A DNA stretch of 64,000 nucleotides from Bryum argenteum (Eukaryota > Streptophyta > Bryopsida > Bryales > Bryaceae): the NCBI GenBank assembly GCA_037043015.1, contig CM073329.1, forward strand, positions 4,914,648 through 4,978,647, read 5' to 3'. The notes under the pieces were generated by a model, which worked only from the letters and a program-made list of their open reading frames with translations, was not told the origin of the DNA and made no database searches. Positions 1 to 38,254 of this stretch are shown here, one piece after another (the stretch's first letter is position 1; every line of letters starts with the position of its first letter). The position numbers and the translations under genes were made by a program.

Positions 1-1683
1 AGACCCCCCTCTTCGACTACCCCCCGTTCTTGCTCAGCGACACCAACTTGCTCATCGGAGGGGATACGCAGCTTACCGAGGCGGATGACTCCACGGGCGC
101 AGGCTCATATGTCACTCTAAACCCGAGTAGTACTCACTTTAACTTAAGCTCTCCCGACAGTTGTGGCTCGTTACTCTACAGAAAGCCACTTCAAATGCGA
201 GGTAGCGACTCCTCATTCACCACTTCCTTCACTTTCTCCATCTCCAGCGAGGACTCCGCCAATGCCGCCGGGTTCGCATTTGTCCTCCTCCCCCAGAATC
301 ACACCACCGGAATCCCCGGTGGCAAGCTCTGTTTGATGCCACGAAATTTGGATGCCACCAGTAGCCAGTTCTTCGCAGTGGAGTTCGACACATTCAAAAA
401 CCCGGAGTTCAACGACACCAGCAACAACCATGTCGGTGTCAACATCAACAGCATGAATTCCTCGTTTACTTACAACTTGTGTGGGGACGGAATTGACGAG
501 TGCACTTATCTTATGTTTAACCCGTTGCTCACCTCCTTATCAACCCCTTTGGAATTCACATCATGGATCGAGTATGATTCCGTGACGAAAAACCTGGCGG
601 TGTTCCTTACAAATGGTTCCACATTGAATGACATCGCGAAACCTGCTAGTGCTATCATTAAAGCCCCTGTCGATCTGAGCGATGTGATGACTGACAACAT
701 GTTCGTGGGGTTCACCGGATCAACCATTAGTTTTATAGAGTCGAAGAAAATCACTTCCTGGAGGTTCCGCTCAAGCGCCAGACTCACAGAAGTTACGTAA
801 GTACTGTGCAGCAACATTGTCCAACCATTTTAGAACTCTGATTGACAGTTTGCCAAAGTTGTAGTCCGGATCTGTCCAACTCCACTAGTTGCGATTGAGG
901 TGGTCTTTGATTGCAGCCCCGCCGCCTTCGGGTCCAATTAACAATGGAACTTCGCCACCTTTGGCTCCAATTAACAATGGAACTTCGCCAGGTATCAAGG
1001 GACCTCCAGGCTTGAGCCCGGGAAGCAATGGATCGACGGCGAAGCTCGTTGTGGGGATTGTTGGGAGTGTGGCTGGAGTGCTCGTCATACTATTAATTTA
1101 CAAGATTTTCAGATTGTTCAACCGGCCTCTACGTATCTTCCTCTCCCATGCAGGCGGCAAGGATCAGGGAGGGAAGAACTTCCCAGACTGGCTCTACGAC
1201 GAGATGACATCAAGCTGGAAGCTGAAGCACTTCATCGAGGTGTTCTTAGACCGAAGGCGTTTGGAGAAGGGCAAAAAAGTCGCGGACAAGATCATCGAAG
1301 CGCTCGGCGAGACGGAGGTGGGAATCGTGGTGGTCACACCTGAGTTTTTCACTAAAAAGTGGCCCATGACGGAGTTGATTTCTTTCATGAGGTCTCAAGA
1401 CTACAAACCAGCCGTGAAAATCCTGCCGCTGTTCTACCAAATGCGTGTGGATCAAGTTAGAGAAAATTTGCGGAAAGGAGTGTGGGAAGTTGAATGGACG
1501 GAGTTTTCCAGGCATGGCAATCATCCACTTGTGATGGAAGATTGCCGAGCTGCAGTGCAGCAGCTGTGTGATGTGTACGGCATAGAGTACAATTTCAACG
1601 ACGGGGGCCACGATCGAGAGTATATTAAGCTGATTCTGAAAGAGGTCGGTGGGATTGTGCGAAAAGGACTTTTGAAGAGATAA
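1..1683 (+). CDS. Gene A: L-type lectin-TM-TIR receptor-like gene, 5' partial
   Basis: The frame is open from base 3, so the start codon and signal peptide lie left of the window. Exon 1 encodes an L-type (legume) lectin domain. It keeps the metal-site pattern VEFDTFKNPEFND...NNHVGVNINS, the GG of loop B and the cysteines shared with its paralogs. After an intron (793-916) exon 2 encodes two copies of a Pro-rich repeat ending in NGTS, a transmembrane helix (about 1039-1113), a basic stretch (RLFNRPLR) and a TIR domain (about 1129-1683). The TIR shows IFLSHAGG, the BB-loop-like FLDRRRLEKG, and KKWPMTEL with Trp at 1360-1362 and Glu at 1372-1374, the position of the plant TIR NADase glutamate. 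Expected topology is type I, lectin outside and TIR in the cytosol. The exon 1 donor that would keep the frame is mutated, so the main product may be a secreted lectin. Function is inferred; no direct evidence. Confidence 0.82.
793..916 (+). other. Intron of gene A with an altered splice donor
   Basis: The acceptor ttgcag (911-916) is shared with genes B and C. Exon 2 needs one base left over from exon 1. Gene C has G at the base aligned with 793, giving a usable donor GGTACG; gene A has T there, giving GTTACG, so that donor is lost. The next donor, GTAAGT at 797-802, is strong but leaves two bases over and puts TAA (939-941) in frame eight codons into exon 2. Retaining the intron also stops, at 798-800. 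Canonical splicing therefore yields a lectin without membrane anchor or TIR. Confidence 0.75.
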
Positions 1684-7501: not shown

Positions 7502-9448
7502 ATGGGTATGTTGCGGCTACTTCACATTCTGGTACTCATGATACATCAAGGGAGGATACTAGTCGAAGCTCAGACCACCTTCAACTACCCCCCATTCAAC
7601 GACACCAACTTGCTCTTCGGAGGGGATATTCAGCTCACGGAAAATGCATTTTTCGGCACCTCAGAAGTCGATCTCAATACAGGTGCTAAAGTTAACTTCA
7701 ACACTGCCGGCACTTGTGCCTCGTTACTCTATGGAAAGCCACTTCAAATGCGAGGTAGCAACTCCTCATTCACCACTTCCTTCACTTTCTCCATCATCGG
7801 CACCCACTCCGCCGGGTTCGCATTCGTCTTCCTCCAGCAGAACCACACCACCGAAAGCCCCGGAGGCAAGCTCTGTTTGATGCCGCAAAATCTGGATGGC
7901 ACCAGTAGCCAGTTCTTAGCAGTGGAGTTCGACACATTCCAAAACCCGGAGTTCAACGACCCCAGCAACAACCATGTCGGCGTCAACATCAACAGCATGA
8001 ATTCCTCGGTCACTTACAACTTGTGTGGAGACGGAATTGACGAGTGCACTTATCTTGTGTATGGCATTTCGACCTTAAACGTCGTTCACGAATTCACGTC
8101 GTGGATCGACTATGACTCCGTGACAAAATCCCTGGCAGTATATCTTACAAATGGTTCCACACTGCAAGACATTGCAAAACCTACTAGTGCTGTTATTCAA
8201 GCCTCGGTCGATCTGAGCGATGTGATGAAGGAGAACATGTTCGTGGGGTTCACCGGATCGACGAGAGATAATATTCGAGAGTACAAGAGGATCATGTCCT
8301 GGAGCTTCAGCACAAGCGCCAGACTCACAGGTATGCACCGTGCAGTATCAATCTATGCAACTTCCCATTAAAATTGTCAAACCATATCAGAACTTCGATT
8401 ATCCGGATCTGTCTAACTCTATTAGTTACGATTGAGGTGGTATATGATTGCAGCCCCGCCACCTTTGGGTCCAATTAACAGTGGAACTTCGCCACCTTTG
8501 GCTCCAATTAACAATGGAACTTCGCCACCTTTGGGTCCAATTAACGATGGAACTTCGCCAGGTATCAACGGACCTCCGCCACGAGCTCCAGGGTCAAGCC
8601 CAGCCAACATTGTACCAGCTTCGTCGACCGGGGGTAGTGACAGCAAAAGTGCGATAATTGGTGGGACAATCGGTGGGATAGTTGGTGCGGTTGTGTTGCT
8701 AGTCATGTTCATCTTCTATTGGGTGAAAAAATTGTTGAGGCTGCCACTACATTTCTTCATCTCACTTACAGGTGGGAAAAAACAAATTTATAGAAACTTC
8801 ACAAAGAGCCTCTACCGCAAGTTAACAAAAAGCTGGACGTTGAAGTGCTTCATTAAGGTGTTCATGGACAGTGAGCGTTTGGATATGGGTGAGCCATACA
8901 TACCGCGACTTGACCTAGAGCTCGATAAGATGGAGGTGGGAATTGTGGTGGTCACACCCGAGTATTTTACAAAAAAATGGCCCATGACAGAGTTGATCTC
9001 TTTCATAAAGTCTCAAGACAAAAATCGGGATGTGATTATCCTACCCCTCTTCTACGAAATGACTGTCAACGACGTTCGAGACATTCTGAATATAGCTAAG
9101 CTGCTGCAAGTTAATCCGGAGGAAGTTGATCCGGGGCAAGTTATTCGGGGGCAAGTTGATCCGGAGCAAGTCAAAAGGGAGCTGGGGCAAGCATGGAACA
9201 GAGCATGGAACGAGAGGACCTGCCGTGAAGAAGCTTCAATTCCGTTCGAAGATTGCCAACATGCAGTGCAGAAGTTGTGCGGTAATAGCGGCATAGAGTA
9301 CAAGTTCAGAGACAGGTGCTATGATAAAGAGTACATCGATCATATTGTGAAGGAAGTCGGTAAGATTGTGCGAAAAATTATTTGGAAGAGAGTGAAAGAT
9401 GTCGCCTCCTTCAATAGAAATGCAAGTCGAATCCAGAGCAGCTCTTGA
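7502..9448 (+). CDS. Gene B: L-type lectin-TM-TIR receptor, two exons, 607 aa
   Basis: Exons are 7502-8330 and 8454-9448 (829 + 995 nt, in frame). The ATG at 7502 starts a signal peptide (MGMLRLLHILVLMI) that aligns with gene C. The frame is open further upstream, but that part is not conserved as protein. Residues about 25-276 are the lectin domain. About 277-335 are three Pro-rich NGTS-type repeats plus a Ser/Gly stalk, with possible N-glycosylation sites. About 342-366 is the transmembrane helix, followed by KKLLRLP. About 373-590 is TIR. The TIR has VFMDSERLDMG and KKWPMTEL with Trp452 and Glu456 at the expected NADase positions. A four-copy in-frame 15-bp repeat enlarges the region after ILPLFYEM. 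A likely role is sensing glycans or other ligands outside the cell and signalling through TIR activity; this is inferred from domains only. Confidence 0.88.
8331..8453 (+). other. Intron of gene B
   Basis: The donor is CACAG|GTATGC and the acceptor GATTGCAG|CCCC, 123 bp apart. One base is left over upstream and two downstream, joining to an Ala codon just before the Pro-rich linker. The acceptor side is nearly identical in genes A and C. The intron separates the lectin module from the linker-TM-TIR module. Confidence 0.85.
9107..9166 (+). repeat. Four in-frame 15-bp repeats in the TIR of gene B
   Basis: The four units of the type CAAGTTGATCCGGGG encode QVNPE, EVDPG, QVIRG and QVDPE. They lie in the TIR between the ILPLFYEM strand and the C-terminal helices. 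Genes A and C have no such insert. Being a multiple of three, it keeps the frame. Confidence 0.85.
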
Positions 9449-9548
9449 TTAAACTCAGCACACTCAATTGTCGACAATGAGACTAATGAGTTTGTTATGA
9501 ATCGTCAGGGAGTGTATACATGCTAGCTTCTTGTTGAACAGATATTTC

Positions 9549-9770
9549 ACTTCTGACCAAAAACAAATGGGATGAAGCATGGAATTCGAGTAGTTCAGTG
9601 AGGGGAATCATCCAATTCCTCCACAAGAATGCCGTAAAGCAGTGGAGGGGTTGTGCGCAATTCACGGCGTAAATTACAGTTTCAGCTACTAGGGCCACGA
9701 TCGAGAGTATATCAAGCGGATTCTGAAAGATGTCGGTCAGATTTTGCAAATTTTTTTTTGGAAGAGATAA
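9549..9770 (+). pseudogene. TIR 3'-end fragment of a lost lectin-TIR unit
   Basis: About 100 bp after the gene B stop lies a second copy of the end of the TIR exon. The translation matches GNHP.....CRKAV..LC, then GHDREYIK.ILK and the final WKR stop (taa 9768-9770), as in genes A and C. It contains stop codons and lacks the lectin, linker, TM and TIR core, so it is a relic. The following bases (9771-9830) match the 3' flank of gene A. It probably marks an unequal exchange or deletion between units. Confidence 0.8.
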
Positions 9771-10539
9771 GCGAAGGTGGAGGCTGTTGATTCCGCTTGC
9801 TTCAGTCCGAAGCGCACCTGAGCCATTGTAAGCCCTTCCGCCATCAATCTGGGATTGACTTTCGAAATCCGGAGAATACACCACGTGAGTTTTGTAACAT
9901 TCCCGACATTGCTTTGGTGTTTCCACTTTTGACAGATTTAAGTTCCTCAATTGAACCACAATTGTAAGTAAAGTCTCATCTTTTGATTAGGTGTCCTTCG
10001 CTGGAGTAGTTTACTTCATCGTCCTCAAGTGTCAGGTCTTTTCAGAAATGCTCCGGTACTTTTCAGTATTCAATCGGTCTTTTCTTCTTTCTGTTTAGAG
10101 ATTCACGATGGTAGTTGTGCACATATGAAAGCTGCAATCTCCAGGAATTTGAGAAAAGTGTGGAGTTTCAAGCAACTTCGATCGAATGCTTTGTCTAAGC
10201 TTTGTAGGCTAGAGAGAGTGGTTGTAGCTTGGTTGCAGGATGAAAGGTTTGGCGATAGTTGTTAGAAGGAAAGTGAATCTAGGAAGCTCAAAGGCGAGTG
10301 CCCACAAGCGGAGAGGTGTCTGATTTAGCTTATTTTGTTCCATAACAATCCATATGTATTAATTGGTTGACAATATATTTCTGAACTACAAGAAATGAAC
10401 CACTCATCTTAAGAGGATTTTTACCCTCCTTTCGTCTCACAAACGGTTCAATTCCGCGCGTATAAAGTGTCCCTTCTCTACTACTATAATAAAATGCAGT
10501 TATGCAATTATGTGTTCGGAGTACCTTGATGATAAGTTG
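9771..10539. other. 3' flank, copy of the flank behind gene A
   Basis: Bases 9810-10260 match 2551-2905, and 10265-10535 match 3738-4030; the 831-bp MITE of unit A is absent here. No convincing gene is present. Confidence 0.55.
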
Positions 10540-10800
10540 TGTTGTTCAAATACATAGTTATAGTAGTTACCAGTTAGCTTCGGCTAGAGGATATAGACAC
10601 ATTATTTACATATCTCCATCATGTAGTTAATACTAGTTAGTGAGCATCCGAGGTACTTAGCCGATGTTGGTTGTTTGTTCATGACGTTAGTGTTTTCTCT
10701 TCAGCTTTTGCTCATGGAATAAACGTAGCCCTTCGTGTTGTGAGCGATACATTCAAGTCTCGCTTGTTTTTTTTTTTTTTTTAGTTCCTTTCGAACAACA
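10540..10800. mobile_element. Short insertion of about 260 bp with inverted ends and a T-run
   Basis: This block interrupts the flank shared with unit A (near 4030). The ends are TGTTGTTCAAA and TTTCGAACAACA, inverted relative to each other. A run of about 18 T lies at 10765-10782. It could be a MITE, a SINE-like retroposon or a short solo LTR. A possible 4-bp TGTG flank duplication is too short to decide. Confidence 0.4.
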
Positions 10801-11865
10801 TGTGCGTTCCTTGGGTCTCGTGATGAATGGATCTTGAATGCCATGATATATACAACTCTACACTTGACGCTAAGAGGTTTATAATCCCCTTATGCTCTAG
10901 AGGTTCAAGGGCTGTTGGTTGGAGGATACAAGGTTTGAAAATAGTTACAATTTGATAGGATAGTGAGTTTGAAAAGCTCATCGGGCCATGGCACGGCAAA
11001 AGGGATCGGTGGTGAGCACTTTCGCCAATCTAGATGTTTTATCTTATTTTTTTAATATTTATATAGAACAATTGGTTTATGATCAATTAACATACATTTG
11101 TACCAAAGCAGAGCACCTACACTATCTGCCTAGGAAAGAAATTAAGAACATTTCCAACAGACTAGCTACATTTAGCAAGACAAAGGTTATTTTCCTCCCC
11201 TATACAATCATTGTTCGACCCGTCAAAAAGAGGCCCTTGACCCAACAAAGCTAGCAACCCTCCAAAGTATATGCATGCCTATCCAATCAAGTGCCACTTA
11301 AACGTATTTTTTGTATAAATATGCAAAAAGCAATTGAGACCGTCATTGCTTCAAACCTTAGCCCTACCTTTACAAAACCTCTCTCTAACTTTCTTCATGA
11401 GCTCAAATCTTCACCTTCCATGTAATTTGCCATGTGACTAATGTCTATCACCCTTTTTTTTAGGTGCAATAGAAACTTTTCATACTACTATGGTAGAAGT
11501 ACCTAAAACCACCAGCACCCCCAGTATCAACCTATAGGTCTCCCCATAACCGCACCTAGCCTGAACTAGCATTGTCAGAACACTCAATTCAAACTGACCA
11601 ATCAAACAATCAAAAAGCAGGTGGTTTTGGGTCGAATCGTGAATGGAAATTTGTACCGGCTAGGTGTGACAATGGGACAGTCTACAGATTAGTTTTGGGT
11701 CACTAAGTACTTTTGCCTTTGGAAATTTATATTTATTTATGTAACATTTGGGAGTTAAATTTTGTAAAAAATTGCATCCTATGAGAAAAATTCTTTCCTA
11801 CATGGGAAAAATATACCCCAAAAATAACCATTCTAAAAAAACCTCAAAAAGCTTAAGTTGGTGGT
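10801..11865. other. Intergenic DNA before the Copia element
   Basis: Bases 10810-10920 resemble 4045-4140 in unit A. The remainder is AT-rich with no recognised gene. The last five bases, GTGGT (11861-11865), are the left copy of the Copia target duplication. Confidence 0.5.
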
Positions 11866-12194
11866 TGTTGGATGAATTTCGTTTAATATGAAGATCGATG
11901 ACTTCTGTCCGTTCCACCACGTTCCACCACCGTACATAAGCTTGTTGTACATTGATAGTTCTTACCTTGCACAGATGTTTCCGTAGGAGTGTTTGTAGTG
12001 CGCTGGTGTTGTCTTTCACAGCTGCGCTTAAGCGGTGTGAAGTGTAAGCACAGTGAATAACTTCCTTCCATTGTGTAGTGGTCTTTGATTTCTTTTCAAT
12101 AATACATTGTGCTGTAGCACATTTCTCAGAGCGCTTTCCCATTTGTCTATTCGTATTTTGCATACGATCTGCTGCTTTGTAGCTATTTCTCACA
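11866..12194 (+). repeat. 5' LTR of the Copia element (329 bp)
   Basis: It starts TGTTGGATG and ends TTTCTCACA, the usual TG...CA. It differs from the 3' LTR by one base and by one extra 10-bp unit. Confidence 0.95.
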
Positions 12195-12206
12195 GGTTAT
12201 GGGCCT
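12195..12206 (+). promoter_or_regulatory. Copia primer-binding site matching the initiator tRNA-Met anticodon arm
   Basis: GGTTATGGGCC follows the LTR directly. Its complement, GGCCCATAACC, is the anticodon-arm sequence of plant initiator tRNA-Met rather than its 3' end. This fits the half-tRNA priming known from some Copia elements. Confidence 0.7.
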
Positions 12207-15200
12207 TATCTCTTCGCTATAGACAATAGAAGAAAATAGAGCGACGTGACTTCTTTGAAGGTTTTCGATGGTACGAAGTTTGCTGTATGGAAGTTCCACA
12301 TGGAGATTTGCTTTGAGGAGAAGATGGTTTTGGACGTTATCAACGGATTTACGATAGCGCCTTCTCTCAGCGAGCCGGAGGAACTTTGCGAATTATGGAA
12401 CAAAAAGAACTCGATGGCTCGGCGAATGATCAGTTCCACTGTTACTCTCCCTGTTCTCGAGAACCTGGTGAACTGCACTACAGCTGCATGCATGTGGTCG
12501 ACTCTTTGTTCATTCTATCAACAGAAGTCGCAGGAAAATATTTACTCCGTCCAGGCGAGTTTCTTCGATTACAAGATGGTACAAGGAGATAGCATGAACA
12601 CACATGTTAACAAGGTGTTAGCTCTTGGAAATCTTCTTAAAGATCTCAGGAAGCCCGTTGTAGAAGACATGCTCATTTCCAAAATATTCTCTAGTCTCCC
12701 GCCGAGTTACAATGCCATTATTGCGGCATGGACGAATCTTGCCGATGCTGATCGTACTGTTAAGAATCTTAAGACGAGGCTTCTTCAGATGGAGAACATT
12801 ATATCACTATAGAATGGAAATGTCGAGAGTGTGATGGACAAAGCTTTTTTCTCTCGTACGAATCGTAACTCGAGTTCATCCACTTCAAAGTATCAACGTC
12901 CAGAGCATATTAAGGAACGTTCAGAGGAGAAGGAGCGTAACAAGGAGCATCTCCGGCTACTCAAGGAAAATTCCTTGTGCTACAATTGTGGGAAACCACG
13001 TCATTGGCCAGATGAATGTCCGGAACCGCCTCGGTCTGATTCTAAGAGATCTGAGAAGTCTTCTCGAAATTCTAACAATCGAAAACAAAGTGATGCAAAT
13101 ACTGCTACGAGTCAGCCTTTATCATGCAACTCTGATCATGATTCTGATTGCAACTCCGCTGAGAGTGATTCTTACGCGTTCATGACAATAAGTTGACACT
13201 CTCAAGCACTTAGTGACAATCTTGACTCACGGACGTGGTATGCGGACACTATTGCGACTGAGCATATGACTGAACATAGAGATTGGTTTTCAAACTTTAC
13301 TCCAGTTGATCCTGGCAAATGGTCTGTTGCTGTGGCCGATGATCGAGACGTTTGGGTTCTAGGAACGGGTGATATCAATATTATGCTTACGGTTGATGGT
13401 TCTCAGCAACATGGCACGCTCCGAAAAGTTCTGTACGTCCCAGATCTTCGACGAAACCTCTTCTCTGTCGGATTGGCTTCTTTATCCGGCATATCTTTTG
13501 TCACTCTCGGTGGGACGTGCGCACTATATCGAAATTTTGGTAAAGGACCAAAGATAATGGAAGGAGTGCGAGTTGGCACATTGTATGAGTTATCTTTCTA
13601 TCCTCTTCCACCAGAAGTTGTTGCGTCTACGGTAACCCAAGCTCTCAACACAGCCTCGCGACTCGTTACAGATCTGAGTTTATGGCATCGTCGAATGGGA
13701 CACATCAACGTTGACACTATGAAGAAAATGAGCACTCATTCGAGTCTGGAGAATTTTTCTCTTGCTCCATCGGCAAAGCTTCTCCATGTATGTTCAGGGT
13801 GCGTTTATGGAAAACAACACAAGGCTTCATACTCAGTTGTTCCGGATAAACAACGCTCACAGATACCATGCGAGCGTCTTCACGCGGATTTGAGTGGAAA
13901 GATTTCCGAACCATCACTCGGTGGTGCTGTGTACTATCTTCTTCTCAAAGATGATTGTACCTCATACCGTTTCATGTATTTTCTCAAAAAGAAATCGGAA
14001 ACTCTTTCTTACGTCATCCAAGCTCTTCGGCTTATCACCCGACAAACCGGCAATGATGTCAAGTTTCTACATACGGATCAAGGAACGGAGTTCTATAATA
14101 CTGAGTTCAACACTTTTCTAGAGAAAGAAGGAATTATCCGAGAGCTGAGTGTAGTTTACACACCTCAGCAAAATGGATATGTTGAATGAGATAACCGGAC
14201 CATTGTAGAGTCAGCGTGTAGTATGCTACATACTACCAGCGTTCCTTTGAAGCTTTGGGCAGAAGCCATGAGTACAGCGGTGTATCTTCTCAATCGAGCG
14301 ATAATCACACAAGTTGGGATTAGAACACCGTACGAATTATGGAACCACAGGAAGCCTGCCATCAGTCATTACCGTGTTTTTGGAACGATAGCATACATCT
14401 TTCTTGACAAGCGGTCTCGTACTAAGTTCGAGGCTCATGGTGATCGTGTTGTTTTTATCGGCTACAGCAACATGAGCAAAGCGTGGAGGTTTTGGAAACC
14501 AAACACCGTTAAGGTTTTCGAGCGTTCGGACGTTATCTTTGACAAGACCTTGAACTATTGTTCAACACTGTTTCCAGGTGAACATTCTACAATCAGTGAC
14601 CTTTCGTACAATATCTTTCCGGACTTTGAAGCGTATATTCCAAATTCCGACACGAGTGAAAATTCCACAAGACCTTGTTCACAAGATATGGAAGGCTCTC
14701 GCTCCAAATCGCTAGACAATCCTTGTTCCATCATGCGTAACTCTTCAGTGGGAGATACCTTGCCTACGGCTGACACTCACATTATGGAGGAAAACTCTTC
14801 AGTTTCTCTTCCACTGGGAGAGCTTTCTCCAATGGTTACCGATCAACGTCAGTCTTCACCTCAGGTTTTGAGCAGTCAACCTTCATCGAATTTTTCTCCT
14901 TACTATGATTCCTCACTGAATATACCTAAACTTCGCTCAATACCAGAGATCTATGCTGCTGAAGGAAACTTATCAGATGAGGAGCTCAGTCATACTAGAC
15001 GTTTCCATGCAGCTTTGGTTGACTCAGCTAGTACATACAGGGAGCCACAAACCTACAAGGCAGCCTTAAAGGCACCGGATGTTTCTTCTTGGCAGGATGC
15101 CATGAACAAAGAATACCAATCGCTCATTGATAACCGAACGTGGACTCTTGTTGAACCTCCTCCGGGTAGGAAGATCATCTCGAACAAGTGGGTGTACAAG

Positions 15201-16723
15201 TTGAAGTATCGGACTTCTGGAGAGATTGACAAATATAAGGCTCGACTTGTGGCGAAAGGCTATAGCCAAGTTGCTGGTATTGATTATGAGGCAACATATA
15301 GCCCCGTAATCAAACATGCTTCTATTCGTACCATTTTTGCTGTAGCAGCGGCTCGCTAGATGCAATTGATGCAATTTGACATTGGTACCGCTTACCTCAA
15401 TGGTGACCTAGCTGAAGATATTTTCATGAAGCAACCTGAAGGATATGAGGATGTCAATCACCGAGGTTATGTTTGTCGACTTCACAAGAGTTTGTATGGA
15501 CTCAAGCAGTCTGGACGGCAGTGGAATATGAAATTCGACGATTTTCTTAAGCGACATGATCTTACACCAAGCGATTATGACTCCTGCGTTTACTACCGAG
15601 TTAATTCGACCCGGGAGATAGATACGATTGTTGGTATCTTTGTAGATGATGGCATGGCATGTTCTACGGATCCTACTGTACTCGACATTATCATCAAGCA
15701 CCTCGAAACAGAATTCAAAGTCGTGCGGAGTAACGCGGAGTACTACGTTGGATTTCAAATTCAACGAGATCCTTTCACAGGTTCTATTTTCATACACCAA
15801 TCTAAGTATATTGATGATATTGTGAAAGGCTTCAATATGGCAGATGCGAATCCTGTTTCTACACCGGCGGATCCACATTCTCCTATTTGGGACGACCCGG
15901 AAGATGAACCCTGAGCCCTGAGATACCCTTCAAAGCGATAATTGGATCGATTATGTACGCAATGGTTCTTACAAGATTTGATATCTGCTACGCTGTTAGT
16001 CGAGTTGCAACATACACCGACCGGCCGAGACATCGGCATTGGATAGCTGCCAAACGGATTCTGCGTTATCTCAAAGGCACAACTAATTTTGGAATTCTCT
16101 ATCATGGTTCGATAAACCATTTGACTCTTCATGGATATTGCGACGCCGACTTCTCAAATGACCAAGACGACAGGAAGTCAAGAACCGGCTACGTCATGAT
16201 TCTAAGCAATGGAGCTATAGATTGGACGAGCAAAAGGCAGGGGTGCACAGCTGAATCGACTATCGAGGCTGAGTTTGTCGCTATTGCTGAGGCTTTGAAA
16301 GATACGCTATGGCTCGCTAATCTCCTCAGAAGCCTTGGCATTCCTCAAGATGCTCCTACGATCCTCTATTCAGATAACCAGGGTGTTATTCATCTTGTGA
16401 AGAATCCGCGTTACCACAAGAAGACGAAACATATTGAGCGCAAGTATTACTTCATTCGGGAGAAGTTTAATAAGCGACAAATGGACATCCAATATGTCAA
16501 TATGAAAAATCAACTCGCCGATGTCTTTACTAAAGCTGTGCCACGGGAAGCTTTCTCTTCATCTGTGTCTCTTCTTGGACCTACCGAGACTCCACCGTAC
16601 GTTAAGGGATGATTTTCGACTTCAACAAAGCGTACGCGGGAAAGTTTTTGAATTCAAACTCAACGAGTGGGAGAGACTAATCAAGTTCCGTTTCGTTCGA
16701 ATCTTCATATACTCGAGTGGGAG

Positions 16724-17042
16724 TGTTGGATGAATTTCGTTTAATATGAAGATCGATGACTTCTATCCGTTCCACCACCGTACATAAGCTTGTTGTACAT
16801 TGATAGTTCTTACCTTGCACAGATGTTTCCGTAGGAGTGTTTGTAGTGCGCTGGTGTTGTCTTTCACAGCTGCGCTTAAGCGGTGTGAAGTGTAAGCACA
16901 GTGAATAACTTCCTTCCATTGTGTAGTGGTCTTTGATTTCTTTTCAATAATACATTGTGCTGTAGCACATTTCTCAGAGCGCTTTCCCATTTGTCTATTC
17001 GTATTTTGCATACGATCTGCTGCTTTGTAGCTATTTCTCACA
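16724..17042 (+). repeat. 3' LTR of the Copia element (319 bp)
   Basis: Near-perfect direct copy of 11866-12194, again TG...CA, followed by the target duplication GTGGT. Confidence 0.95.
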
Positions 17043-17090
17043 GTGGTTTTAGGGCATTCAACCTTACATCATCAAATATTCTACTGGTCT

Positions 17091-17462
17091 TTAACCCTTA
17101 AACGCCCAAGCAAGCCCGAGGGGCATGATTCCAACAGAATCTTCCTTATAGCTCTCACTGTACTCAACTTTTCACTTGTATTTTGATGTCAAACTGGTCA
17201 CCTTCTTCTGATGCATTGAATTAGTCAGATTTGACAATTCAAATCACAATTTGTATGAGTGATTTTGTGCTTTGAAAGGATTATGGTAGGTAGGTTGGGA
17301 TGGTACATAACCTTGTAGGAGGTTGCAAGCTCATCATTGATTGGTTCATTCACAATGCCCAAGTTCAAAAAGTGCACTATTCATGATGCCCAAGTTCAAA
17401 AGATGCTGTGATCAATTTTGGGCTGCCCATTTCAGACCCCATGGGCGTTTTTAAAGGGTTAA
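17091..17462. mobile_element. TTAA-flanked MITE, 372 bp
   Basis: The ends are inverted: TTAACCCTTAAACGCCCA on the left and, read on the other strand, TTAACCCTTTAAAAACGCCC on the right. The interior (for example GGAGGTTGCAAGCTCATCAT near 17320) recurs at 22170-22580. TTAA flanks with CCCTT-type ends suit a piggyBac-like MITE, but that class is inferred from the ends alone. Confidence 0.65.
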
Positions 17463-18589
17463 TACTAATTCTGTATAGAATTTTGTAAGACTATGAAAAC
17501 AATCAATAACTACTTGTTCAGATTGGGGGCCCATGGAAATGAAGGGCCAAAAGAGTCTATTTTTGGCTCTGAAGGCCCCCACCCCCATTTTATGGAAGGG
17601 CTTTTATTTTCTAAACATAGTCTCTAGGGAAATGGAGTACCTTTGGGAGCTTCACTTTTCAAGCCTTGCGGCGAAGTGGACTATATTAGTTCCTGGCTAA
17701 ACATGCCAATAAAAAACAAAAATTGTGCAAGAAAAATACCTTAAAATATTATCAACCCCCATTTCTAGTGTAAAGTCAACGAGGCCAGCCTCTACTCCTA
17801 TACTAATAAGGAAGCTTCATTTCAATGGCCCTAAGATAACTCAAAAACCAGCCCTACCTTGTTGAACAATCAAATGGTTTGACTCATTTTTACCAAAAGA
17901 GACACATTTTCAAAGAAAGAGTCATAAATGGTTACAAGTAATTTGGATTTTAACCATGTGATCTTCTAGGAGACCACTAGATACATATTATACATCATGT
18001 GGGTCAAATTTAATATGATGAGGCCTCATCACCCACCACCATTCGGTAGTTATGAAGCCAAAATTTTGGCAGATGAGATTCTTCAGCAAGTGGTTTACGA
18101 AGCAGATTAAGACAATGATACTTAAACAGTAGTCTTACCAACTTACTATTAGAGTTTGGTTGTTAAATCTTTAGAAAATCTACCAGAGCTCCCTGTGGGT
18201 AAAGGTTGATATGCTAGGGTAATATTTGAATTGAGTACTTTTACTAACTTAAGAAGGAGTTTACAAGTGATGAGGCCTCAGAGAGTGCAAGATCATATTG
18301 TGTAAGTACTCAGAAAACAACACAAAATCTTAGCATTTTCACATTGAAGTGAAAATACTACCGATAGGCTTTTTTGAATGAAAGATCACCAACTACAATA
18401 TCTTTACTTTCATCCCAATTGTGCAAATAGTGGTCTTGCAATGATGAAAATTGCGCAAAAATCAGCAAAAAAAGAAATGTCCAAACTTGTACAAGTGAGG
18501 AAGTTATGGCATACATTTTTGTACAAGTTGCTAGTTACTACTTGTCATCCAAAATGTTGTCTTCCGCCTCAAGTAACCTTCATCACTTG
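17463..18589. other. AT-rich intergenic DNA
   Basis: Nothing recognisable: no long ORF, tandem array or element ends. Confidence 0.45.
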
Positions 18590-20152
18590 AACTGACATAT
18601 TCATCCTCTATATTTCCTGACTGATGTAGCCGCCAAGTTGCAATTTGAGGAACCTTCAGGTCTTGATGAACTCGCACAGGCCATTTAGTGCACTGCCATA
18701 CTGAAGTGGTAATCACCTGGCGAAGTTCTCTCTAAATACTGGTGATCGAGGCTTTTACCTGTCCCCGCCCGTAACACAAGCTCTGCCCGCGCCTGAACGA
18801 GTCTTTAGAGATTGCACTTCATCTGTGTTGAGGGCGGGGACAGTCAAACCCTCGATCCCCGTTCGTAACCAGTATTTACAGAGCTCCTCACCTGGCTGGC
18901 TGACTGATATCATTATTCGACTTAGATGGTTCAGTCGGTATATTAATATGTTGTCTGACTGCTGACTTCCGCGGCTCACGAATTCTGTGTTTTAAACGGT
19001 AGAACGTAAGTAAGCAAGCAGCTTAGCACCACAAAAGGTCGAGCTATAGTAGCCAGAGCACTGCCTTTTTTGCACAGACGACTGTTTATCGTTTAGTGAA
19101 TATCAAGAAGGGAAGCCTGGGGAGGAAGTTTGAGATCAATAGTTTTCCGGCTCTCGGCTCGAACACGGTTGTCACTCAGCACTTTGAACGGGGAGCTTGT
19201 GAAGCACAACAACGGATTTGTTGCTGTAAGGAAGTGTCCGTTACCTCAGCTCTACCGACAACGCTGCTGTACTTAACACAAAGAAAAAGCAGTCTAATTC
19301 GATCACATTAAGTTCCCAGGTACGTGAACAATGCTTCGATCGATGTTTTTGAGTATGGGTATGGCATGTAGAACTGAAAGTGATTCTTGTACGAAAGTTT
19401 CGAAGAAGTGATTCTATGTAGGTTGGGCCTTGAACAACATTCTTGTCTCCTTCCGTTGAGCAATTTTGTGAGGGTATGGATATGATGGGTGGAGTTTGAT
19501 ACAGTGGAAGTAGAAGTTCAAGTGGAAAAGCATGTTCGCGATCAGCAACCCGTAGAGGTGGTGTCGGCTCGCATGACTGTAAACCACAGGATCATTACGT
19601 AAAGGAAAAGAACATAGTATAAGTGCTTGAGAGTAAGAGTATCTCAAATAGTACATTCCTATTGCGAATTGGAGTTCGCTCATCAGGTCCTTCGGAGATT
19701 TGTACATACTTGAAACCTAAGCTATTTGTTTCGTAAGTTCAAGGCACATTCCTCATGGTTCAAGGTTGAGAGAGCTATCGACTGAGATAACTCCACCTGA
19801 AGCTGTGACCCTGGCCATTTAGATGTCCGATCGATTGAGGTTTACGGTTCAGTTTATCATCAGGACTCGAAGTGGCTAACAGTGTCGATATGCTACTCGT
19901 GAGATCTGCTATAAGAGTCTAAATTCATAAAGAGTAACCATTCCTAGAGTCCTCTAATGTCAAATACAACAGTGTTGCTTGTATATATTCATGTTTTGAT
20001 ACAGCCGTGGACATTCTGCATGATCCGAAAGGTCGGAAGCTCGTAAGCGAGGTCAATTCCCATTTACTTGATTGCTTAATCGATAGTGCATGTCAAGAGA
20101 AAGATAAACATCTGGACAGTTTGAATCAGGAAACGGAGGCCTACATGCATTG
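18590..20152 (+). promoter_or_regulatory. Conserved 5' region of gene C
   Basis: Ordered blocks match 6000-7501 and 23850-25001. They include GGTCTTGATGA near 18658, TTTTAAACGGTAGAACGTAAG near 18988, GTTGCTGTAAGGAAG near 19220, GTACGTGAACAATGC near 19320 and GTGGCTAACAGTGTCGATATGC near 19870. It is probably promoter plus 5' UTR. A foldback element (18733-18878) interrupts it. Confidence 0.55.
18733..18878. mobile_element. Foldback (long inverted repeat) insertion upstream of gene C
   Basis: Left arm 18733-18770 and right arm 18832-18878 pair in blocks: TAAATACTGGT with ACCAGTATTTA, GATCGAGG with CCTCGATC, and CTGTCCCCGCCC with GGGCGGGGACAG. The loop is about 60 bp. The conserved 5' regions of B and D have no counterpart. 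It could form a strong hairpin if transcribed. Confidence 0.7.
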
Positions 20153-22007
20153 ATGGGTTTGTTCCAGCTACTTCACGTTCTGGTACTCATGATTCTTCAA
20201 GCAACTGTAATACTCGTCGAAGCTCAGAACGAAGCTCAGAATGGCGGCACGACCTTCAGCTATCCCCCCTTCAATTACACCACAAGTAACTTGCTCTTCG
20301 GAGGGGAGGCGGAGATCAACGAGGAAAATGCAATTTTCGGCATCACAGAAGTCAATCTCAATCCAGGTACTGGAATTTACAACGACACTACTCCCGCTTC
20401 TTGTGCTTCGGTACTCTACGGAAACCCACTTCAAATGCGAAGCAAGGACTCTTCATTCACCACTACCTTCACTTTCTCCATCGCCGGCACGAACTCCGCC
20501 GGGTTCGCATTCGTCCTCCTCCCCCAGAATCACACCAGCGGAGACCCCGGATGCAAGCTCTGTTTGATGCCGCAAAATTTGGATGCCACTAGTAGTCAGT
20601 TCTTCGCAGTGGAGTTCGACACATTCAAAAACCCGGAGTTCGACGACCCCAGCAACAACCATGTCGGTGTCAACATCAACAGCATGAATTCCTCGTTCAC
20701 TTACAACTTGTGTGGAGACGGAATTGACGAGTGCACTTATCTTGTGTATGGCAATTCGAACAACTTCATATCAACCAGATCCTATGACATTCACAATTTC
20801 ACGTCGTGGATCGAGTACGATTCCGTGACGAAATACCTGGCGGTTTTTCTTACAAATGGTTCCACATTGCAAGACATCGCAAAACCTCCAGGTGCTATCA
20901 TTGAAGCCTTTGTCGACCTGAGCGATGTGATGAATGACAACATGTTCGTGGGTTTTACCGGATCAACCAATGCTAATGATGAAGAGTTGAAGAAAATCAC
21001 TTCGTGGAGCTTCAGTACAAGCGCCAAACTCACAGAAGGTACGTAAGTACTGTGCAGTATCAATCTATGCAACATTGTCAAACCATATCAGAACCCCGAT
21101 ACACAGTTTGCCGAAATGGTAGTCCGGGTCTGTCGAACTCCACTAGTTACGATTGAGGTGGTCTTTGATTGCAGCCCCGCCACCTTTGGGCGCAATCGAT
21201 AATGGAACTTCGCCAGGTATCAACGGACCTCCACCTTTGGGCGCAATCAACAATGGAACTGAGCCTGGTATCAACGGACCTCCGCTACGAGCGCCAGGCT
21301 TAAGCCCAGGCAACATTGTATCAGCTTCGTCGACCGGGGGTAGTGGCAGCAATGGATTGAAAGCGGAGCTGGCTGTGGGGATTGTTGTGGGAGTGGCTGT
21401 TCTCCTCGCCATAGCCATCGGCTACAAGCTTTTCAGATTGTTCAGGCGGCCGCTTCGTTTCTTCCTCTCTCATGCGGGTGGCGACGATCAGGAAGGGAAG
21501 AACTTCCCAGACTGGCTCCGCGACACGATGACAGAAAGCTGGAAGCTGAAGCGCTTCATCAAGGTATTCTCGGACCGAAGGAGTTTGGAGACGGGCAGGC
21601 GATTCCCCGATCAGATCAAGCAAGCACTCGAGAAGACTGAGGTGGGAATCGTGGTGGTTACACCCGAGTTTTTCACTCGAAAGTGGCCCATGACAGAGTT
21701 GATCTCTTTTGTGCGTTCTGAAGAGAGGAATCCGGCCGTGAGAATCCTGCCGCTGTGGTACCAAATGACTGTGACCAAGGTTAAGGAGGATCTGCGGGCA
21801 GGAAAGTGGAATCAAGCATGGACGGAGATGTCCAAAGAGGGCAATCATCCACTTCCGCTTGAAGACTGCCTTAAAGCAGTGAAGCGGCTGTGCGAAATGC
21901 AAGGCGTTTCGTATACTGCCAATAGCCGCGGCCATGATCGAGAGTACATTAAGCAGATTCTTAAAGAAGTCGGTAGGATTCTGCGAAAAGAACTTTGGAA
22001 GAGATGA
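20153..22007 (+). CDS. Gene C: L-type lectin-TM-TIR receptor, two exons, 572 aa
   Basis: Exons are 20153-21038 and 21175-22007 (886 + 833 nt, in frame). Residues 1 to about 24 are a signal peptide (MGLFQLLHVLVLMIL). About 32-295 are the lectin domain, with FFAVEFDTFKNPEFDDPSNN and the cysteine motif NLCGDGIDEC. About 296-358 are two Pro-rich NGT repeats and a Ser/Gly stalk. About 360-382 is the TM helix, followed by basic RLFRRPLR, which fits a cytosolic C-terminus. About 388-572 is TIR. The TIR has FFLSHAGG, FSDRRSLETG and RKWPMTEL with Trp466 and Glu470 at the plant TIR NADase positions. Exon 1 ends in overlapping donors: the first keeps the frame, the second truncates the protein after the lectin. 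No kinase, NB-ARC or LRR is present. Confidence 0.9.
21039..21048 (+). promoter_or_regulatory. Tandem splice donors of gene C
   Basis: GTACGTAAGT holds two donors 4 nt apart. Cutting before 21039 joins to 21175 in frame and gives the full receptor. Cutting before 21043 uses the stronger GTAAGT but shifts the frame to TAA at 21200-21202, giving a secreted lectin with nine extra codons. Tandem donors of this GYNNGY type are known alternative-splice sites; use here is untested. Confidence 0.65.
21039..21174 (+). other. Intron of gene C
   Basis: 136 bp, ending GATTGCAG as in A and B. It separates the lectin exon from the linker-TM-TIR exon. Confidence 0.8.
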
Positions 22008-25001: not shown

Positions 25002-25749
25002 ATGGATCTATTGCGGCTAGTTTACGTTCTGATACTCATATATCAAGCAAGGATAGTTACTCGTTGAAGCTCAGAATGGCACGACCTTCAACTTCCCCAC
25101 CTTCACCGCCACTAACAAAGCTGACTTGCTCTTCAGAGGTGCACTACCCGAATTGACACAGTCCGGCGTCTTGCTCAATGGACTTGGTATGGGTTTGGGC
25201 TGTAGCTCCCTACTCTATGGAAAGCCATTTCAAATGCGGGGTAGCAACTCTTCAATGATCGCCTCTTTCAGCACTTCCTTCACTTTTTCCATCCTCGATC
25301 GGCACCAACTCCACTGGGATGGCATTCGCCTTCCTCCCCACAACGAAACCGCCGGAGACGCAGGAGGTCCGCTCTGCCTCTTGCATCAGTCAGAATGGGA
25401 GAATACCGTCACCCAATTTTTTGCAGTGGAGTTTGACAAATGGAAAAACCCGTAGTTCGATGACCCCAGTAACAACCATGTCGGTGTCAACATCAACAGC
25501 ATGACTTCCTCCGCCACTAGCAACTTGTGTGGAGATGGAGTTGACAACTGCTCCTGTCTTGTTTCTGACTACACAAACGTTTAACCCTGGTAACAATTTC
25601 ACTTCCTGGATCGATTATGACTCCGTGACGCAGAGCCTGACGGTTTTTCTCACGTATGGAACAATAATGCAAGGCGCTAAGAAACCTGCAAATGCTATCC
25701 TTCAAGCCTCGGTCGATCTGGCAATGTGATGAATGAGAAAATGTACGTG
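25002..25749 (+). pseudogene. Pseudogene D: lectin-TIR family, cut by the CACTA element
   Basis: From the ATG at 25002 the signal peptide and lectin domain align with genes B and C (for example GKPFQMRGSNSS, AVEFDKWKNP, HVGVNINSM). The frame is broken by a stop at the end of the signal peptide, frame changes in the lectin core (near 25300 and 25560) and a TAG at 25453. Homology ends at ATGTACGTG (25749), where the CACTA end begins. The rest of the lectin and the whole TIR exon are missing from the window. It had probably decayed before or after the insertion; the order cannot be told. Confidence 0.85.
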
Positions 25750-30665: not shown

Positions 30666-33600
30666 GTAGAAGGAAAGTACTTGAAGGGATTACAACAAAT
30701 TGGAGCATGGAGTAAAGCTGGGATTTGGGGTCGTGATTGGATTGCAATATCCGGGTAAGTAAAATTTCTGCATATGGCAACAGGTGTAAGGGTTAGAGAC
30801 CTTAGAACCGTGATCGCTAGGCATTGATTATTGTTTGATCTTCTTCGACATCCAGGTAAATGTTCTTCAAAGTGTTTTATGTGTAAAATTCACCAAAGAA
30901 TGAATTTTGTACCGTAATTTTATGTCGTTTGCTATTGTAGTGGGTAAATCCAGACCTATCAATTGTGAAGAAAGCGAAAGTGGGTAGGCTCCCTGCTGCC
31001 GCGGTGGCAGAGTTTTTTCTTCACAAATTGGTAGTATAAGTTCAGCCCCACACGTTAGTTGTCTGTATAGCATCTAGGTGGTCTTGGACAGCCTTGCATT
31101 GGGATTACCATGCAGTTAGGTGTTCAAGCAGCCTAGGTGTTGTTTTCCGTTTCCTTTCCCTGCCAGAAAGTTTTGCAAATCTAAGTGGGTTGCAGATTCT
31201 CTACTTAATTAACCTCCAGAATTTTTTACTAAGGTGAAACTTAAAAGCTTCCAAGTGTGTATGGAATTTAGAACTTAGTTGAGGAGTTTAGACTTAAAGG
31301 AGCTATAGTTAGTACTAGGACGTGATCGAATAGATTAGAGCAGTACCTATGTTACTTATTGGGATTATACGGGTTATATTCTACATTTGGAAACCTTGGT
31401 AAGTTTAATATCCTAACTAATTTTTTTTGAAGTTATGGTTAAATGCAACAATCAACTAGGTCACATAAACCAATCTTAGTAAAGCCTTTACAACGATTTA
31501 GAGCACTGCCTAATACTGCTTCGCGTTTGAGATCTGTTGGAAATTTAGACACAAACGTTAATTCACAAGCTCAAGCTATAGACGATTTTATAGAAGCTAA
31601 CTTAGACAATTTAGAGGTTCTTGCAGATACTGGATCTCCATCAAACCTATTTCCGGTGTTCAACCAATTTGATTTGCCGTTAGAGTTTGAAATCATGGAA
31701 CCACCCGAACCTCCACCAATTAACCCCTTGGTTCGACCAAGGGGTTTGCCTATAGTTGTGCCAGAGGGCCTTCAAGCCGCGCCTATGCCTCCAAATCTTC
31801 CCATTTTTAGAGGTTCTAGAGATGAAGATCCCTCGGCTCATGTTAAGCAATTTATCGAGATGCTCACAACGTGTTTGATCACGGATGGTAGGTATTATTT
31901 GGTGTGGTTTCCGACCACATTAAAAGATATGGCTTATGAATGGTATGGCAATCATCCCGCAAATACGTTCATCACATGGGACATGTTGCAACGAGCATTT
32001 TTGGAACACTTCCGACCCGAGGTAGGTCAAAGTGCGGCATTAACCGCTCTATCATCGCTTAGGCAAGGTCAAGATGAAGACATTTCGTCTTACATTCGCC
32101 GGTTTGAGTTAGTGGTCACTCGATTTGTCGGTAACTTGTTAACCGATGACACTCTCCAACATTTTTTCATTCAAGGTTTTTGTAAAGAAACTACGATTAA
32201 AGAAGTATTGCATGCCCGACCTAGGAATCTAGCCGATGCTAAAGAGGCCGCTAGGTTGGTTGAACAAATTAACAAACAACATGAACGATTATGGAGAAGA
32301 GAGGACCAAAACATACCAAGTTTTATACCAATTCACGCTAGGCCCTTACACGAGAATGTACAGCGTGCAACCACTCACAAGCCGGTGGTAAATCCATCCT
32401 ACCCCGTGCCTTTGAACACGAGATTTCCAACGGATACGTTAGCATTGACATATCCGGTTAGCAATGATAGATGGAAGGAAGAGATTAAAGCCGAATTACA
32501 AGCCTCTCAGAAGGGATTTCATGATCAAATTGCTCAACAACTTAAGTCTATGACTGAACAAATGTCTATGATGATTAGGAACCAACAACCAAATTCCGTT
32601 CCTCTTCCAATAGAATCTGGCCATCATGCTTCCGGTTTGTGGTGCACAAACTGTGGGCAACCAAGTCACAGTGACCAATTCTGCCAAGTTGCGCCAACTT
32701 TGCGCACGTCACAGGGTAAACAACCGTTTAATAACATTCAACCATATGGTGAGTCAAATCGTCAAGATCGCGGTTATGAGTCTCAAAATCAAGGTCCTAG
32801 AGGTCAACGACGTTTTAGACACGAAATTCATCCATTTTGCGGTAGAAGACATCCACCCGGTAGTTGTTGGTTAGAGAATGGTGTGATTTGCGGTAATTGT
32901 GGTGGAAATCACCCTACCGATGTGTGCAACCGGCCAGATAAGGTAATTCCCCTGAATATGCCTAATTACGATTATGCTCGTCAAGCTCAAGAAAATTTGA
33001 GGGGATCTCGCCAACCTTCGGGTTCTAACAACCTAAGACCGCCCAATTTGTTTTATGATTATGCCCAAAATAGGCAAAATCATAATTCTCCGTCGGCATT
33101 GCAAACAAACCGTGGTACAATTCCCTTAAATCAGAAGACAAATCAAGGGGTAGGACCATCTCAATCTAATGCAAATTTTGCCCATGGTACGCAAGATGTT
33201 AGATTTTCGACCGAACCATTAATACCACCAACCATTAACGGCGGACCCTCTATTGCTTCTACCTCACAAGTGCCTCTTCAAATGAACCTAATTCTACACG
33301 AACTCGCGATGGAAGAACCGGTACAAGGTGCCAATGTACCAACGTTAGCAGTTATGACTAGATCGCAACACACAAAACCGATTCTAACATCAATTGATGA
33401 AGAAAGTGCTTCGGAAGATTCACCGCATTTATCAGATTTAAATGATACATTGAAAAATGCGGTAGAAGACACTTTAAAAGAAGGTGTCAAAAATTCTATA
33501 CTCCAGCCAACTCTGCTTCCATTTGATCGATCGCCTAGGGACGAGGAAGAAAGGCTAAGTGAATTCTGGGAAGGACCAACAATACCGGAGTTGGAAAAGT

Positions 33601-36600: not shown

Positions 36601-38254
36601 GGAACGATTTGCGTATGAATCTTCCGCTACATGTATCTTTGCCGCTAGTTCCTTTTGAAAAATGGGGAATTGATTACATCGGGGAAATTCACCCTAGTTC
36701 TTCTCGTGGTATGCAACATATTGTAGTAGCAACCGAGTATCTAACCAAGTGGGCAGAAGCAAGAGCAGTTAGAACAAATGATGCGAAACATGCCGCCAAC
36801 TTCTTGTTTGAACAAGTTATCACCCGATTTGGTTGTCCTAAGATTTTAATTAGTGATAGAAGCAAACATTTTCTAAATAAGATGATTGATGAGTTAACCA
36901 CCCGATTTAACATCAACCATCGCAAAACCACGCCTTATCATCCTCAAACAAACGGTCATACCGAGCGAGTAAACCAAACCTTGGTTACCATTTTACGCAA
37001 GACCGTCTTGGACTCCAAACGAGATTGGGACATCAAACTTCCGACGGCATTGTGGGCTTATAGAACCACTTATAAGGTTACAACTCGGGCCACACCTTTT
37101 TCCCTTGTCTATGGTGTAGAATCGGTTTTGCCTATTGAGTTTGAAATTCCATCATTGCGTATTGCCATTAAGGAACGATTGTCAGATAACGCATCTTTGA
37201 GTCATAGGTTGGGAGTTCTAGAAGGTTTGGATGAAGCAAGGCGTACAAGCGCCCAACATGTGGAAGTCATCCAACGGCGAAGGAAACTAACATATGACAA
37301 AAGGAACAAAGTTAGAACCCTTCGACCAGGTATGTTGGTTTTATTACAAGATGCGCGACGCTTGGACTTTTCGGGTAAATTTGATGCTCTATGGATGGGA
37401 CCATATGTTGTGAAGGAGGTGTTTCACAACAACACCGTTCAATTACAAACTTTGAACGGTGAAGACTTCCCTACCCGAACCTCGGGAAGTCGGTGCAAAG
37501 AGTACAAAGTGTGATTTGAAAATCGCAAGTCTTATAAATTTTTAGCACTAATTTTCTTTAGTCTACGTCTAGGTCTAGGATATCATTTTCCCACATTAAT
37601 TTTGGTCGGGGATATTGAAGGTCTTAGGCTCAAGGCATAGGCGGCGAGCACTTAACTTCCTTTAACTCCTAATTCTTTGTTCATTTTTTTCAATTGCGAC
37701 ATCTTATGATGAACAAGTTAGGTGATTAGAAGGGGAAGTGTCTATGATAACCTTACTTACTAATAGGTATTTAGTAGTATTATTTCCTATTTTCAATTTT
37801 GACTTTCTTAGCCTTCTATCTAATATGTTTTCTATTTAGTAGTTTCAGTTCAAACCATTAGAGGGAGAATTTTGTTTCATTAACTTCTCTTTTAGAAAGT
37901 GATAATTATATTATTTGGAGTTAGCTCATAGTACTAATTTTTAATTTGTTTCCAAATCAAGTAGTGAAGAGAAACCTTGAATTTTAACTTTGACTTGTAA
38001 GCCTTTCGTGGGTTACAATTTCTTTCTCTTAGTCCAAACCCACTCTATCGGGGGAGGTGCAATCTACTCTTCTAAACTCTAATATAGGTCCAAGTCATTT
38101 TCACATGAGGCGGACAAGTACCTTTCTATGCTATAATTTTATTTTTTCTTTTTATTGGTCGCTTCAAACTAATGTAGGAAGTAGGAAATGTCGAGTATAC
38201 CAGGGTATTTTGCGGAGCAAAGAGCATCCCGTAGCGGTCTTGGTTAATTGACAT

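Follow-up and report, generated by a model that had tools for sequence, protein, structure and literature searches.

Candidate surface receptors joining a legume-type lectin to a TIR domain in the moss Bryum argenteum

In a 64,000-nucleotide stretch of chromosome C9 of the moss Bryum argenteum (the window; C9:4914648-4978647 of a 258.8 Mb plant genome in 25 contigs), two genes, B and C, raise the question of whether a plant can wire a surface lectin directly to a Toll/interleukin-1 receptor (TIR) domain. An earlier note, made from the letters of the window alone, had read in both genes a lectin ectodomain and a TIR domain, linked by a stalk and a single membrane helix, a layout it had not seen described in plants. 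The present analysis favors genes B and C as surface L-type lectin receptors that would signal through a TIR NADase and not a kinase, with a probability of roughly two in three. The two genes belong to a tandemly expanded family, so far composed of members in this moss genome and three outside proteins.

Genes B and C, both on the + strand, were each composed of two exons separated by a phase 1 GT-AG intron. Exon 1 of gene B (7502..8330), assigned by open reading frame (ORF) and Pfam, encoded the N-terminus and the legume-lectin ectodomain, and exon 2 (8454..9448), assigned by ORF, Pfam and hydropathy, encoded a Pro/NGT stalk, the membrane helix, the TIR domain and the stop. The intron of gene B (8331..8453) had a splice position within one codon of that in gene C and in three more C9 copies. 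Exon 1 of gene C (20153..21038; ORF, Pfam and hydropathy) encoded a signal-peptide-like stretch and the lectin ectodomain, and exon 2 (21175..22007; ORF and Pfam) encoded the same elements as in gene B, with the intron (21039..21174) placed by splice comparison. The predicted proteins were 607 (B) and 572 (C) amino acids long. In the Pfam profile search proposed in the earlier note, both exceeded the curated cut-offs for Lectin_legB (163.1 and 165.2 bits; cut-off 26.3), TIR (40.5 and 32.2 bits; cut-off 21.3) and TIR_2 (31.1 and 39.6 bits; cut-off 28). Lectin_legB scores ranged from 163 to 170 bits when a third copy, gene A, was included. Hydropathy placed one strong hydrophobic stretch after the lectin in each protein, at residues 349–367 of B (8669..8725), followed by KKLLR, and at residues 359–377 of C (21363..21419), followed by GYKLFRLFRR. 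With both domains above cut-off and one helix between them, the proposed layout was borne out for B and C. The Glu of the WPMTE motif, aligned to the catalytic-position Glu of other TIRs, was Glu456 in B (8990..8992) and Glu470 in C (W466–E470, codon 21696..21698), the latter at the position first given for it. A kinase domain was not matched by Pfam in any fused protein scanned (A, B, C and relatives), and NB-ARC was not matched in the full-length fused proteins.

The fusion was seen within single frames elsewhere in the genome, where protein C as the query gave 84 matches. A 16 kb stretch of C5 contained four genes that were uninterrupted ORFs of 506, 542, 516 and 595 amino acids, each with Lectin_legB (66–158 bits), TIR_2 and TIR above cut-off and a membrane helix between. 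Six copies were located on C9 (the three window genes A, B and C, a pair in L031 and one in L032), two copies with lectin and tail on C6 together with one tail lacking a matched lectin, two copies with lectin and tail on C8, and tails without a lectin on C3. TIR and TIR_2 were above cut-off in B, C, the tail of gene A, the C5 genes, the outside protein P0001 and others, and the C3 tail scanned scored only below cut-off. The intron position differed among the groups; the C5 genes were uninterrupted, the C9 intron followed the lectin, and the C6 break lay inside the lectin end. The reading of lectin and TIR exons as separate genes, named in the earlier note as what would overturn it, was examined in the whole genome. 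It is unlikely, because four relatives are single uninterrupted frames and three outside proteins have the same order; two neighboring genes in place of a fusion were ruled out on this evidence.

Two further sets of family members were observed. Genes encoding a membrane helix and a TIR from the family tail clade, and with no lectin match, were located on C3 at 20.75–20.77 Mb (L037 and L038), one of them with a partly doubled start of the helix–TIR part; these are possibly receptors that lost the ectodomain. The two C8 copies (L039 and L040; 12.00–12.01 Mb) had tails about 50% identical to that of P0001, and the L040 lectin was extremely diverged (branch 4.74 in the tree) and was without the FDT metal-loop motif.

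The outside relatives were found by protein searches. A search of 5.8 billion proteins with protein C, in which 7994 candidates were scored, gave 62 matches; 47 of these had a kinase domain, and a TIR was present in P0001 alone, a protein of 587 amino acids with 36% identity across 98% of C. The TIR part of P0001 as the query gave three matches, all of them with a lectin and a TIR: P0063, P0064 and P0001 itself. These three proteins, of 573–589 amino acids and from jgi and ena contigs shorter than 5 kb, had the same order of lectin, membrane helix and TIR as B and C. No annotated lectin–TIR protein of Ceratodon, Physcomitrium or Sphagnum was present in the three match lists, which is weak evidence of absence in those mosses because the search requires shared 5-residue words. 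The nearest named relatives of the L-lectin proteins of the genome were from Ceratodon and Sphagnum.

The flanks of the helix fit a lectin outside and a TIR inside in B and C, as the earlier note had proposed. In the 15 residues after the helix, B had three and C five Lys or Arg residues, compared with one each before it, and neither protein had Asp or Glu in the 15 residues after it. N-glycosylation sequons lay mainly on the lectin side, with six before and two after the helix in B and eight and none in C. Helices and N-terminal stretches were called by a hydropathy threshold; by this measure the proposed signal peptide was supported in C, where the N-terminal hydrophobic stretch passed the threshold, and not in B, where it fell below.

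The Trp and Glu of WxxxE were kept in all 21 family tails compared by alignment; a pattern search had chosen an earlier Trp in two rows, both of which read WPMTEL in the alignment. The C6 tails read WCLTEL. Among 18 other TIRs of the genome, W-P-M was found in nine of the ten closer ones and W-C-L in seven of the eight distant ones, with one lacking the motif in each set. WPMTE does not mark out flowering-plant TNL TIRs, given these motifs in the other TIRs of the genome. NB-type exons adjoined the TIR at 9 of 13 other loci viewed by eye, of both the W-P-M and W-C-L sorts, and the tail therefore looks like an NLR-type TIR with a gained membrane helix. The W-P-M genes L044, L058, L062, L064 and L065, which also adjoined NB-type exons by eye, form a TIR class that differs from the W-C-L type seen in the majority of L001–L008.

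When the C tail was compared by sequence with solved structures, 19 matches were obtained at E 0.01, with bacterial TIRs first, followed by AtTIR, L6, RUN1, RPP1 and Roq1. These were from plants and bacteria, with no animal TIR among them, and some were named NAD hydrolases. A profile of six rows (A2) matched AtTIR (3jrn) best at 3.2e-15, and also L6 (the flax rust resistance TIR), RUN1 and RPV1. In Nicotiana, 11 of 20 TIRs from non-flowering plants caused cell death, with moss TIRs among the strong ones, and dependence on the Glu was demonstrated for a fern and a Ginkgo TIR; EDS1 is absent from seed-free plants (available text of PMC11218826). The EDS1_EP profile gave no match in this one genome, and no control genome gave a match either. 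NADase signaling without EDS1 is plausible for this family because of the kept Glu, the results on non-flowering TIRs and the absence of EDS1.

Several observations weigh against B and C as NADase surface receptors. For the four C5 proteins, Lys and Arg in the 15 residues after and before the helix numbered 2/0, 3/3, 0/3 and 1/2, and for P0001, P0063 and P0064 they numbered 3/3, 2/3 and 2/3; the flank charge was mostly absent or reversed in these relatives, so the positive-inside rule gives no support for the topology there. An N-terminal hydrophobic stretch was above threshold in six of nine family proteins; the three that fell short were P0001, B and one C5 protein. On C6 and C8, the link between lectin and tail relies on assumed introns, and a C5 tail as the query found no relative among 178 candidates in the protein search. 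The ratios of nonsynonymous to synonymous substitution (dN/dS) were fairly high, at 0.46–0.83 with one pair at 1.22. The aligned family tails showed no SH pair such as that in the AE interface of TNLs, although conservation of this pair across plant TIR groups is not high (PMC9806590). The structure model of C exon 2 had a mean predicted local distance difference test (pLDDT) score of 42.6, so that its Foldseek matches to plant TIRs carry little weight, and the TIR part of the P0001 model was weak, with ten-residue blocks at 37–69. At this confidence, the fold rests on the sequence. Nor is a conserved Glu proof of NADase activity, as many animal TLR TIRs keep a Glu there and are not known to be NADases.

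The most probable of the alternatives is one in which the TIR would be a non-enzymatic scaffold on a surface lectin receptor and would recruit other TIR proteins, such as TIR-NLRs, by TIR–TIR contact in the manner of animal TLR tails. The single-pass layout is that of TLRs, and the genome has TIRs enough to recruit, at 150 places or more with the family tails included; the missing SH residues and the poor confidence of the TIR models leave room for such a tail. Against it, the Glu and the preceding Trp were kept in every tail compared despite fast divergence, and the relatives of solved structure at E 0.01 were plant and bacterial TIRs that include named NAD hydrolases. A purely scaffolding tail is therefore considered unlikely, and NADase signaling is preferred.

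The exon junctions of the C9 copies bear on a second alternative, in which the lectin and tail exons of C9 would be used separately, as a soluble lectin made by intron retention and a TIR remnant, and only some members would be real fusions. In five of the six C9 copies, all but B, an in-frame stop lay no more than three codons from the junction of exon 1, and the readings ended in LTEGT, LTEGM, HTEGM and LTEVT before the stop (L031, L032, L033 and window position 21039). Unspliced transcripts would therefore end as lectin only, soluble and without the tail. Gene A, on the + strand, consisted of a lectin exon (1..797; Lectin_legB 169.9 bits, ORF) with its 5′ end outside the window and the whole exon in L033, and of a reading frame for stalk, helix and TIR (889..1683; TIR 43.1 bits, splice comparison). 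The donor GT of the sister copies was lost upstream of its tail frame (g/ttacgtaag). Gene A perhaps no longer joins its two halves in frame, and its product may be only the soluble lectin. Separate use of the exons is nonetheless improbable for the family, as the four C5 genes and the three outside proteins were fused within one ORF or predicted protein, the GT-AG intron lay at the same place within one codon in five of the six C9 copies (genomic sequence, by eye), and the frames of the tail exons remained open, with dN/dS below 1 in nearly all pairs.

An assembly or annotation artefact, or a chance neighborhood of lectin and TIR, is negligible even with a check that covered one whole genome, as the ORFs were uninterrupted, the same order was present in contigs from other sources, and a family TIR tail lay on the same strand within 790 bases at 14 of the 47 Lectin_legB places genome-wide, on four chromosomes (some genes account for two places, and tandem copies are not independent), compared with about 0.02 of 47 expected to have a TIR within 1.5 kb if 150 TIRs, a minimum count that includes the family tails, were scattered at random.

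Pairwise dN/dS values, taken as plain ratios without a significance test and with some flanking bases included in frames outside the window, were 0.46–0.78 for the C9 lectin exons (15 of 15 pairs below 1), 0.47–1.22 for the C9 tail exons (14 of 15) and 0.52–0.65 for the C5 genes (6 of 6). The frames of the family thus appear preserved yet fast-changing, like those of many immune families. Copy E (L031:8053-9925, − strand) had a lectin exon closest to that of copy D (dS 0.138) and a tail exon closest to that of gene B (dS 0.079). These different nearest copies of its two halves make exon reassortment inside the C9 cluster likely. A broken fragment with lectin only (25057..25578, + strand) was 57% identical to residues 21–203 of C and contained one in-frame TAG stop; Lectin_legB scored 52.3 bits for 25057-25452. 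Tail fragments with stops were also located on C9 near 6.62 and 6.64 Mb.

A Copia-type retroelement (11920-17043) lay between B and C; its coding stretches (12240-16612) were broken and spread over several frames, and its terminal direct repeats of 276 bases were 100% identical (11920-12195 and 16768-17043). The identical repeats suggest a recent insertion into the receptor cluster. Elsewhere the window contained Ty3/gypsy-like gag, protease and reverse transcriptase–integrase ORFs (31443-37511), a hAT-like transposase ORF (49197-51311) and a RING-H2 finger ORF (51769-53619, − strand).

The P0001 model had a mean pLDDT of 64.6, and its lectin was good, with 20 of 25 ten-residue blocks of residues 51–300 at 80 or above. 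The best 50 of its 1496 Foldseek matches were legume lectins, with 1lec at the top (E 5.3e-18). The metal-binding loop, judged by eye at the positions of its residues E, D, N, D and H, looked complete in C (VEFDTFKNPEFDDPSNNH) and B (VEFDTFQNPEFNDPSNNH). The same held for P0001, the remaining four C9 copies, one C5 copy and two C6 copies. It was altered in two C5 copies, P0063 and P0064, and was not found by eye in one C5 copy and the C8 copy examined. Loop A read SAGFAF in B and C, compared with ADGFA or ADGLAF in the aligned legume lectins, and lacked the loop-A Asp of the monosaccharide site. Classical monosaccharide binding by the B and C lectins is therefore unlikely. The same is stated for LecRKs in general, whose ligands include extracellular ATP, NAD+ and NADP+ (available text of PMC10311507).

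The two halves of the receptor gave different trees. A tree of 39 TIRs had one branch (96/99) that set 18 other TIRs of the genome apart from the 21 family tails, which came from five chromosomes and from the outside proteins. Long branches met at the join with L001–L008 (eight TIRs), and a join of this kind may be spurious. As the tree covered 18 of at least 150 TIR places and left out the C9 tail fragments at 6.62 and 6.64 Mb, a nearer TIR without a lectin may have escaped it. The lectin tree used 64 of 87 rows, the 23 dropped being public rows, mostly seed-plant LecRKs. The C9 and outside-protein lectins lay within a clade holding the Ceratodon LecRK P0003 (100/97), the outside-protein lectins grouped with P0003, P0004 and P0002 (100/98), and the C5 and C6 lectins grouped together elsewhere (100/99). 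A single clade of these lectins was rejected by the approximately unbiased (AU) test (p 8.8e-5), and again (p 8.6e-6) in a second tree from which six more long rows were removed and to which one C8 lectin of unsure placement (branch 4.74) was added. In this second tree, the C9 and outside lectins as one clade were not rejected (p 0.14). A single origin of the whole receptor was not accepted, as the tails formed one clade and the lectins did not. At least two L-type lectins thus seem to have acquired the TIR tail, with TIR and kinase tails exchanged at least twice, a reading limited by the long branches and the sampling.

Each module is known from other systems. LecRKs share the legume-lectin ectodomain and one membrane helix with B and C, in which a TIR tail replaces the kinase; the proposed contrast with LecRKs agrees with the Pfam results above. 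Animal Toll-like and IL-1 receptors consist of an ectodomain, a single membrane helix and a cytoplasmic TIR. B and C have the same order of parts with a legume lectin instead of a leucine-rich repeat or immunoglobulin ectodomain. The parallel with Toll-like topology drawn in the earlier note stands for the order of parts and does not extend to the flank charge, which does not support the side of the TIR in several relatives; the likeness appears to be one of layout only, with no sign that the receptors as a whole share an ancestor. Plant TIR-NLRs, TIR-only proteins and TNPs have the Trp and the catalytic-position Glu in common with B and C, which differ by the absence of NB-ARC and the presence of a lectin and membrane anchor; surveys of plant TIRs do not name the lectin–helix–TIR layout in their available text (PMC9806590 and PMC9153377). 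Proteins in which a TIR is accompanied by a short transmembrane region, and algal NLR-like membrane proteins, share a TIR or NLR relative and a predicted membrane segment, and the available parts of PMC9153377 and PMC7145615 include a red-algal TIR-NB-WD40 and no single-pass lectin receptor. The Arabidopsis "TIR-lectin" PP2-A5 also combines TIR and lectin in one protein, but with an N-terminal TIR, a PP2-type lectin and no membrane receptor layout (Santamaria 2019, in the available text of PMC12355970). The TIR-NBS-Lectin_legB-Pkinase class has TIR and Lectin_legB together, but with NBS and kinase and in the opposite order, and is listed as highly species-specific (available text of PMC11126693). 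B and C would qualify as L-lectin receptor-like proteins of a 350-genome survey, which has lectin and helix without kinase and defines the class by one or two membrane helices and no kinase; a TIR tail is unmentioned in the available part of that source (PMC10834447). No earlier description of a plant membrane L-lectin–TIR receptor was found in open papers, with preprints and most subscription journals outside that scope. The modules are thus each known and the combined layout in a plant is apparently new.

On the preferred reading of B and C as NADase receptors, an L-type lectin ectodomain would be followed by the Pro-rich stalk, one membrane helix and a cytoplasmic TIR in a single-pass surface receptor, in effect an L-LecRK with its kinase swapped for an NLR-type TIR. 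Ligand binding outside the cell, or clustering of the lectins, would gather the TIR tails on the cytoplasmic side of the membrane. Once assembled, the TIRs would cleave NAD+ and yield nucleotide signals that serve immunity or cell death independently of EDS1. A bolder proposal, held tentatively and at somewhat less than even odds, is that plants own a Toll-like receptor class in which a TIR NADase tail is a plug-in module on at least two moss L-lectins, swapped with the LecRK kinase, and in which an extracellular ligand, possibly NAD+ or nucleotides as for some LecRKs, directly triggers NAD+ cleavage inside the cell without EDS1. An NAD-sensing ectodomain on an NADase tail would be striking if true, and is offered here as an idea. 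The short and uninterrupted C5 copies make the proposal testable by simple constructs. If it is true, the two arms of plant immunity would meet in a single protein through the coupling of a surface lectin to a TIR, an animal-like layout would have been reached separately in plants, and plants that lack EDS1 would offer a system for asking what TIR products do.

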